64,000 nt of DNA from Sporosarcina sp. FSL W8-0480 (GTDB lineage Bacteria > Bacillota > Bacilli > Bacillales_A > Planococcaceae). Below are positions 37,735-43,367 of this stretch, in pieces (the first letter of the stretch is position 1; each line of letters opens with the position of its first letter). The translations under genes were made by a program, and so were the position numbers. The notes beneath the pieces are model-generated. The model ran no database searches and was not told where the DNA came from. It was given only the letters and a program-made list of their open reading frames with translations. The stretch spans positions 1,152,001 through 1,216,000 of the forward strand of contig NZ_CP150166.1 of NCBI RefSeq assembly GCF_037963765.1, written 5' to 3'.

Positions 37735-38217
37735 ATGGCAATGCCGACTCATATTGTAGCTTGTGGAGGACTTGTGGAAGATGGGGAAGGGAATTTATTG
37801 ATCGTTAAAACACATCATGGAGGCTGGGTGTTTCCTGGGGGGCAGGTCGAAGTAGGAGAAAACTTGATGGACGGCGTTATCCGGGAAGTGAAAGAAGAAA
37901 GCGGAATCGATGTGGAAGTCAGTCATTTGATAGGGGTATATACGAATTCTGCGATTTACAAATGGTATGACGGAGTGACGGATGTTCCGACGAAAGTCAT
38001 GTTCGATTTTGCATGCAAACCGATTGGCGGAGAGTTGAGTACATCGGATGAGACATCGGATTGCAAATGGGTTCATAGGGATGAAGTGTTGGACTATATC
38101 AAGAATCCTGCCTATACGGCAAGAGTAAAAGCCTATTTTGAATTCGATGGGAACGTTAACTATTTGGAGTATGTAACAAAACCTGAATTTGAAGTGAAAT
38201 TGAGTAGGAAGATGTAA
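37735..38217 (+). CDS. Nudix hydrolase
   Basis: A 160-residue pyrophosphohydrolase. The Nudix box GGQVEVGENLMDGVIREV... EESGIDV (about residues 35-60) carries the full GX5EX7REUXEEXGU pattern with its metal-binding glutamates. The substrate could be a nucleotide sugar, oxidised nucleotide or capped RNA and cannot be read here. ATG 37735 has GGGGATGGG ahead; an ATG two codons later is equally possible. It is followed by an unusual tandem array rather than a terminator. Confidence 0.88.
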   Translation: MAMPTHIVACGGLVEDGEGNLLIVKTHHGGWVFPGGQVEVGENLMDGVIREVKEESGIDVEVSHLIGVYTNSAIYKWYDGVTDVPTKVMFDFACKPIGGELSTSDETSDCKWVHRDEVLDYIKNPAYTARVKAYFEFDGNVNYLEYVTKPEFEVKLSRKM

Positions 38218-38237: not shown

Positions 38238-38372
38238 TTTATGCGTCTTTGCGGCGGTTTATGAGCAATTAATTACGTTTATGCGCGAGTTTTAGGATTT
38301 ATGCGCAAGTATCCGAAATTATGAGGGAAAGATTGTATTTATGCGGGAATGCATGATTATATGCGTATCTAC
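38238..38372 (+). repeat. tandem array with a 20-bp period (TTTATGCGN units)
   Basis: Seven units start exactly 20 bases apart, at 38241, 38261, 38281, 38301, 38321, 38341 and 38361, with ATGCGT, ATGAGC, ATGCGC, ATGCGC, ATGAGG, ATGCGG and ATGCGT. Each is preceded by TTT, ATT or TAT. The other 11-12 bases of each unit vary freely. The unit is not a multiple of three and has no frame. The array lies between the Nudix gene and the ykoF riboswitch. Confidence 0.88.
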
Positions 38373-38484
38373 CGACTAATTGTTATATACGGACGAAAGA
38401 ACGAGTTTGCAAGATTTTATTTACAATGAAAAATTCTTCGTCTATACTGGTGGCAACATAAACTATAACTACATACCGTTTCTG

Positions 38485-38577
38485 CACTAGGGGTGCCTAT
38501 TACTGGCTGAGATGAAAGCTGATGCTTCGATCCCTTATAACCCGATCAGGATAATGCCTGCGTGGGGAAGTGTAGTG
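38485..38577 (+). promoter_or_regulatory. TPP riboswitch of the ykoFEDC operon
   Basis: GGGGTGCC, GGCTGAGATGAAAG, CCCTTATAACCCGATC and AGGATAATGCCTGCGTGGGG-AAG follow in order, closed by CACTA / TAGTG. The core deviates slightly from consensus (ACCCGATC for ACCTGATC; CGTGGGGAA for CGTAGGGAA). A terminator hairpin follows at 38608-38634. It should shut the operon off when thiamine pyrophosphate is plentiful. Confidence 0.95.
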
Positions 38578-38607
38578 GCTTTCCGATTTTTTCATATTGG
38601 AGAAGTG

Positions 38608-38662: not shown

Positions 38663-39244
38663 ATGGAATGTGGATTAAGTCCCATCGTCGGATTTCGTTT
38701 TTCGTTATATCCGATGGCAGATGATTTTGTGAGTGTGATTAAAGGAGCGCTGAAGGAGACGGACACGTCAAATGTGTGGATGCATACGGATGATGTGTCC
38801 ACGGTTATTCGTGGCAAGCAAGTACATGTGTTTAACGTGGCGAAGGCGATTGCACTTCATGCTGCAAAAACAGGGAAGCATATCGCGTTATCCGGCACCT
38901 TCTCGGCAGGATGCCCAGGAGATACTGCTGGCGATGTGTATTTGGAGAAAGGTGAGAAGATCGCGAATACGGATGCGACGAAGCAATATGTCTCCTCTCA
39001 ATTTGCACTATATCCGATGAATAATCCGGGATATATGGAAATCATATATCGCGAAGTGGATCGGGCAAAGAAGCAAGGTGTGTTCAATGAATCAATGCAT
39101 TATGCAAGTGGTATTCACGGGGATATCCATGATGTGTTTGCATTTTATGAAGAAGCTTTCAGCAATGCACGTTCTGAAGAACATAAGCATTTGGTCATGA
39201 CAGTTACGATGAGCATCAATAGTCCGTCACATGGGGGATGTTAA
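38663..39244 (+). CDS. ykoF: thiamine/HMP-binding protein YkoF
   Basis: A 193-residue cytoplasmic protein of two tandem ACT-like repeats that binds thiamine or its hydroxymethylpyrimidine part and serves the YkoEDC transporter. The two halves open alike (VGFRFSLYPMADDFV and SSQFALYPMNNPGYM). The ATG at 38663 follows GGGAGGTC and AAGGA; a longer frame begins in the terminator hairpin and is rejected. First gene of the riboswitch-controlled operon. Confidence 0.93.
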   Translation: MECGLSPIVGFRFSLYPMADDFVSVIKGALKETDTSNVWMHTDDVSTVIRGKQVHVFNVAKAIALHAAKTGKHIALSGTFSAGCPGDTAGDVYLEKGEKIANTDATKQYVSSQFALYPMNNPGYMEIIYREVDRAKKQGVFNESMHYASGIHGDIHDVFAFYEEAFSNARSEEHKHLVMTVTMSINSPSHGGC

Positions 39245-43164: not shown

Positions 43165-43290
43165 CACAAAATGACAATAAAACCCGGGAAATGACCGATA
43201 ACTTCCGGGAAATGATCGATAAGTCGTCGTAAGTGATCGATAAAGTTTGGGAAATGATCGATAAACTTCGGGAAATGACCGATAACTTTC
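43165..43290 (+). repeat. tandem array with a 21-bp period (GGGAAATGATCGATAAACTTC units)
   Basis: About six units begin with ATGA or GTGA at 43171, 43191, 43212, 43233, 43254 and 43275, spaced 20, 21, 21, 21 and 21 bases. The unit consensus is about GGGAAATGATCGATAA plus five variable bases. Each unit contains stop codons in the frames with start codons, so it is not coding. It fills the spacer before the vanZ-like gene. It differs in sequence from the array at 38238 but has almost the same period. Confidence 0.88.
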
Positions 43291-43367
43291 ACAAGACCAA
43301 ATGAAACTCGCTTACGATTGAAAACGTCAAGGTCTTTTAGAAGAAATCGGAGTCTAAAGGAGAAGCT

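Follow-up and report, generated by a model that had tools for sequence, protein, structure and literature searches.

What kind of element is a short, fixed DNA word that recurs at exact 20-bp steps between two genes while the letters between its copies vary? The question is raised by an array in a stretch of 64,000 nucleotides (here called the window; positions 1,152,001-1,216,000 of a genome assembled as a single 3.25-Mb contig), in which seven forward-strand units (38238..38377), each made of the motif TTTATGCG and a 12-bp filler, start at 38238, 38258, 38278, 38298, 38318, 38338 and 38358. The preliminary description had the seven units, their exact step and the first position right, and had ended the array at 38372, short of its last position at 38377. 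TTTATGCG is exact in four of the seven units, the other three carrying TTTATGAG, ATTATGAG and TATATGCG, which are one or two bases off, and a four-unit pattern produced four overlapping matches in the window compared with none in 100 dinucleotide shuffles.

The array is non-coding, as had been supposed. It lies between the open reading frame (ORF) of a Nudix-type hydrolase (37735..38217, forward strand; named from sequence only), whose stop codon is 20 bp 5′ of the array, and a TPP riboswitch aptamer (38479..38585, forward strand; RF00059, 72.9 bits, E 5e-14), which is found ∼100 bp 3′ of the array and precedes a YkoF/ECF thiamine operon. A coding repeat was ruled out for this array, whose 20-bp step is not divisible by three and which overlaps no gene in the window. 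Rfam covariance models run over the array gave no match, the TPP riboswitch downstream being the only one returned. The YkoF-like gene (38663..39244, forward strand), which is 95% identical to its counterpart in Sporosarcina koreensis Q1, served as the anchor for comparing the locus across species; that identity places the organism in Sporosarcina or very near it. A second array in the window (43168..43293, forward strand) has a 21-bp period and the motif AAATGAYCGATAA; it belongs to a separate family within this class, one that has 31 two-unit matches across the genome.

A dispersed family at gene 3′ ends

A genome-wide search, which the preliminary description had proposed together with a comparison of loci between strains, revealed many copies: the three-unit TTTATGCG pattern matched 98 times in the genome and its reversed control not once. 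The arrays themselves were studied in 35 stretches surrounding them, and these contain about 42 TTTATGCG arrays holding 259 units. The consensus of these units is TTTATGCGTGATTnnnnGGGA, with positions 2-6 fixed at 97-99%; the filler is partly constrained, position 13 being T in 94% of units and position 11 being A or T in 96%, and almost no information resides in positions 14-17, which are close to random. Consecutive motifs are separated by 20 bp in 148 cases, by 40 bp in 27 and by 18, 19, 21 or 22 bp in five.

Judged by gene neighbours taken from simple ORF calls, 40 of the 42 arrays adjoin the 3′ end of a gene, usually 10-60 bp beyond its stop codon, and just two are flanked by divergent gene pairs, divergent promoter regions being avoided. 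That many arrays start so soon after a stop codon would fit an element acting as RNA, in which the array forms a structured or protein-binding part of the 3′ UTR that affects stability or termination, as would the slightly better folding of the sense strand relative to a column-shuffled control (mean z -0.68). Arrays between tandem genes, however, run with transcription in 16 cases and against it in 13, folding is not in excess of controls whose units were taken from different arrays (z -0.27, se 0.28) or whose unit order was shuffled, no clear Watson-Crick covariation was seen, and intrinsic terminators are as frequent at gene ends with an array (18/42) as at other gene ends (27/69). We therefore regard an RNA-level role as improbable. 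The absence of a direction preference in tandem pairs, together with the absence of RNA pairing between units, instead favours action at the DNA level.

Two more specific candidates were rejected. Hairpins between adjacent fillers are suggested by some single arrays with apparent pairing, yet no consistent signal emerged from covariation or from controls with shuffled columns, swapped units or shuffled unit order; replacement of intrinsic terminators is at odds with the equal terminator frequencies given above, and arrays stand 5′ of the terminator at some loci and 3′ of it at others.

Array orientation matches the local skew in third-position GC (GC3) in 32 of 42 arrays. In six stretches (L047, L050-L053 and L043) GC3 skew opposes gene direction, and there the arrays mostly track the skew, not the genes. 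We also observed a region of ∼110 kb in which arrays are several-fold denser (L050-L053 and L019-L021, at 3.19-3.25 Mb and 0-0.06 Mb of G000; L168-L172 in G032), and whose orthology between species is at least partial.

Other families with 20- and 21-bp steps

A motif-blind scan of 80 loci for periods of 15-60, run with shuffled controls, recovered 7 arrays with a 20-bp period and 17 with a 21-bp period, some of the latter crossing open frames and hence possibly coding in part; the shuffles gave none. Other periods were few, for the most part multiples of the step (40, 41, 60) or coding-type periods (33, 36, 54), with one at 15. The sampled stretches of the window's genome hold at least six families, namely TTTATGCG/20, AAATGAYCGATAA/21, AGTTCTC/21, GCGCTCAAGAA/20, ATCGGTGGTAAA/21 and CGnATCnCAACGTA/21. 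Arrays with other motifs at 20- or 21-bp steps thus occur in the same genome, and they extend to sister species and to further Bacillales: AGTTCTC/21 has 223 three-unit matches in the genome of G004, CGCCTG/21 has 36 genome-wide matches in Pontibacillus marinus and TATGNGCG/21 has 12 in a Bhargavaea, with zero for the reversed control in each case. No such arrays were present in 20-kb samples drawn at random from 18 other genera of Planococcaceae, or in a segment of E. coli; the class is consequently not universal in the family.

Two further loci are worth recording. In G055, from another family of Bacilli, a 16-unit alternating 21-bp array with the motif CAAGTTTA lies in an open frame (L234, 6142) and could be either a coding repeat or a remote member of the class. 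In Salinicoccus cyprini a 41-bp tandem repeat (L120, 6968) resembles a dimer of such units (21+20).

In the literature that we searched (subscription papers and preprints lying outside the search) there is no description of 20/21-bp motif arrays in Bacillales. These results point to a class of repeat not previously described in bacteria, in which each lineage prefers its own word, a novelty that we regard as provisional.

The same site in related species

Between the Nudix and ykoF genes, TTTATGCG arrays of 6-9 units with recognisably orthologous filler are present in S. koreensis Q1, S. luteola MER 9 and MER 47 and Sporosarcina sp. ACRSL. The same site holds 20-bp-step arrays of a different motif, GAACGCCA, in S. 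cyprini, S. luteola S00266 and Sporosarcina sp. NCCP-2222, and no array in S. luteola NBRC 105378; in Psychrobacillus psychrotolerans, Bacillus litorisediminis and Pontibacillus marinus the region carries 21-bp arrays of further motifs. The genome G004, whose anchor locus matches that of S. luteola NBRC 105378, sits among sisters that bear TTTATGCG, a group with 86-89% DNA identity to the window at that locus. It has a single four-unit TTATGNG match but hundreds of AGTTCTC units, and at two sites its AGTTCTC arrays are replaced in G033 by GCGCTCAAGAA/20 and CCGCGTCCAAAG/21 arrays. Orthologous sites can hold unrelated families, and related species would draw on a common motif library from which each amplifies different motifs.

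One stretch of G004 (L241, 2642-5674) contains very long alternating AGTTCTC arrays on both sides of a gene for a NERD-domain-like protein. A non-array stretch is repeated between these arrays, and the sister genome has in their place a short array of another family.

Conservation of motif and filler

The comparison of loci, which we made between species, was based on 20 orthologous arrays of the congeners G032 and G033, anchored on flanking sequence and giving 117 whole aligned units. Motif positions (2-6 and 8) were substituted in 2.4% of comparisons vs 19% for filler, a ratio of 0.09-0.18 (95% bootstrap over the 20 arrays), with the caveat that arrays are detected via the motif and some motif changes stay hidden. 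When only clearly orthologous filler was considered (identity of at least 9/11), 1.4% of motif and 9.7% of filler positions had changed. Units with a perfect TTATG were still perfect in the sister in 101 of 105 cases in one direction and 101 of 109 in the other. Large indels were often of 20, 40, 60 or 80 bp, the others being gains or losses of neighbouring sequence; small indels numbered 9 inside arrays vs 38 in the flanks, a deficit that is partly a matter of ascertainment, as arrays that fall out of phase escape detection. Orthologous arrays keep their motif but not their filler, which points to protection of the short word by selection.

The same comparison bears on whether the arrays are neutral minisatellites produced by slippage, the motif being a mere founder sequence. 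Copy number does shift in unit steps, and tandem repeats are common in bacteria. Neutral slippage nevertheless sits poorly with a motif that changes ∼8 times less than the filler within the same orthologous units, with the prevalence of one motif at dozens of unlinked loci whose filler differs, and with 20 and 21 bp being nearly the sole basic steps. We consider it very unlikely, in agreement with the preliminary description, which had set a fixed motif with variable filler apart from ordinary slippage repeats.

Array growth and a possible selfish-satellite explanation

Among 89 arrays of at least 8 units, filler identity was 0.27 at a lag of one unit, 0.49 at two, 0.29 at three and 0.45 at four, and lag-two similarity exceeded lag-one similarity in 125 of 178 distinct arrays; the definition of variable positions inflates the contrast between lags, and its direction is general. 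Since filler usually repeats at every second unit, the copying unit is usually 40-42 bp, with the motif recurring at half that length. At one locus of G033 (L192, ∼C11:402337-402871) a ∼204-bp block that contains an array is itself tandemly repeated, forming a higher-order repeat.

Copying of this kind would also fit selfish satellites, in which the motif would be an amplification signal (a putative motif-specific nick, recombination or template-switch point) devoid of host function, and arrays would survive at gene 3′ ends as tolerated insertions. Several observations agree with such an origin: many unrelated motif families have one step length in common, families are swapped at orthologous sites of sister species, distribution within the genus is patchy, filler is more alike at every second unit, and promoter regions are avoided. 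On the other hand, orthologous units persist with filler that is ∼81% identical and a motif that is nearly fixed, when pure copying should homogenise the filler too. The suggestion of a mobile repeat made in the preliminary description holds only as far as dispersal and turnover are concerned; a plasmid or phage element was rejected, searches having returned no match among plasmids and just one contig among viruses. Selfish amplification is in our judgement a less probable explanation of the arrays than the one we prefer, and ranks close behind it.

A proposed phased binding array

The reading that we favour, tentatively and at somewhat less than an even chance, is that these are phased binding arrays for sequence-specific DNA-binding factors, which evolve as a turnover-prone library of satellites. 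A short motif of ∼6-12 bp recurs strictly every 20 or 21 bp, a distance close to two turns of the helix, and the filler is mostly free to vary; each motif would be the site of a putative factor that may load cooperatively along the array, and whose role might lie in nucleoid architecture or in the insulation of gene ends. Arrays would gain and lose units through recombination or slippage, chiefly two units (40-42 bp) at a time, and would persist just after genes, where they are least harmful, while families turn over and related species amplify different motifs of the common library. What the data establish is the existence of the arrays, with their dispersal, period and location, conservation confined to the motif, copy change by whole units and the turnover of families; the bound factor, its cooperativity and any effect on the cell are what we infer.

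Motif-limited conservation combined with a fixed two-turn step favours recognition at the level of DNA, and the data are compatible with the binding array that the preliminary description had put forward. Its claim that all motifs lie on one side of the helix does not stand as worded, being true only approximately: 20 bp corresponds to ∼1.9 turns at 10.5 bp per turn, and because successive motifs drift by ∼34 degrees on relaxed DNA, strict same-face binding is not automatic. Further points weigh against binding. At least six families in one genome would require several factors or one that is loosely specific, and the orientation of arrays with GC3 skew is unpredicted by a simple binding model. 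Individual motifs resemble DnaA boxes, Noc sites or SinR boxes, likenesses that were considered and set aside because motifs differ between sisters whose master regulators should be conserved.

A bolder version, which we think doubtful as a whole, is that Bacillales possess a library of satellite families, each with a motif that is under selection and repeats every two helical turns, and each bound by a fast-evolving factor of its own that would coat gene ends and shape the nucleoid; species would swap these families as eukaryotes do their satellites. If the class holds, bacteria have on their chromosomes an analogue of eukaryotic satellite libraries: its families are numerous but built on a single structural step, they turn over quickly between sisters, and only their short word is under selection. 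Such a library, if real, would offer an ordinary bacterial model in which to study what makes one satellite family give way to another and what factors recognise them. Several contigs of sister genomes start or stop inside arrays (L242, L244, L247 and L248 of G004, L016 of G007), which suggests that assemblies break on arrays and that array sizes are underestimated. Arrays may therefore account for assembly breaks, and they could also serve as strain-typing markers.

Comparison with known repeat systems

The known kind to which these arrays belong is that of interspersed direct-repeat arrays. Plasmid iterons and partition-site repeats are phased direct repeats of ∼20 bp, cooperatively bound by one protein, that form single loci beside rep or par (ParB/ParR-type) genes. 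The arrays described here share their phasing and unit length, but occupy about 42 dispersed chromosomal loci instead of single sites, and no rep or par genes were noticed beside them. A CRISPR array likewise combines a fixed repeat, of ∼24-47 bp, with unique variable spacers of similar length, whereas the whole unit here is 20-21 bp and the filler recurs at every second unit.

The TAACTGA heptamer repeats of Beggiatoaceae, Cyanobacteria and Bacteroidetes are direct repeats of unknown function which, in the main genome, consist of 7-bp units toward, and mostly just before, start codons (PMC4679880). They resemble the present arrays in their short motif, their many intergenic direct-repeat sets and their patchy phylogeny, and differ in the motif, in lacking the 20/21-bp units with filler, and in lying toward start codons and not at gene 3′ ends. 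STAR elements of Staphylococcus aureus have a 14-bp GC-rich motif, T(G/A/T)TGTTG(G/T)GGCCC(C/A), and spacers of at least 40 bp; they occupy many intergenic loci, vary in abundance between species, expand and contract, and are of unknown function (PMC3532100). Common to STAR elements and the present arrays are intergenic position, many loci, a fixed motif, locus-specific spacers and changes in copy number. The words of TTTATGCG and the other families differ from the STAR motif, and a 12-bp filler at a 20-bp step takes the place of the long spacers. STAR is thus built on one motif, in contrast to the many motifs, the strict 20- or 21-bp step and the motif-limited conservation of the arrays reported here.
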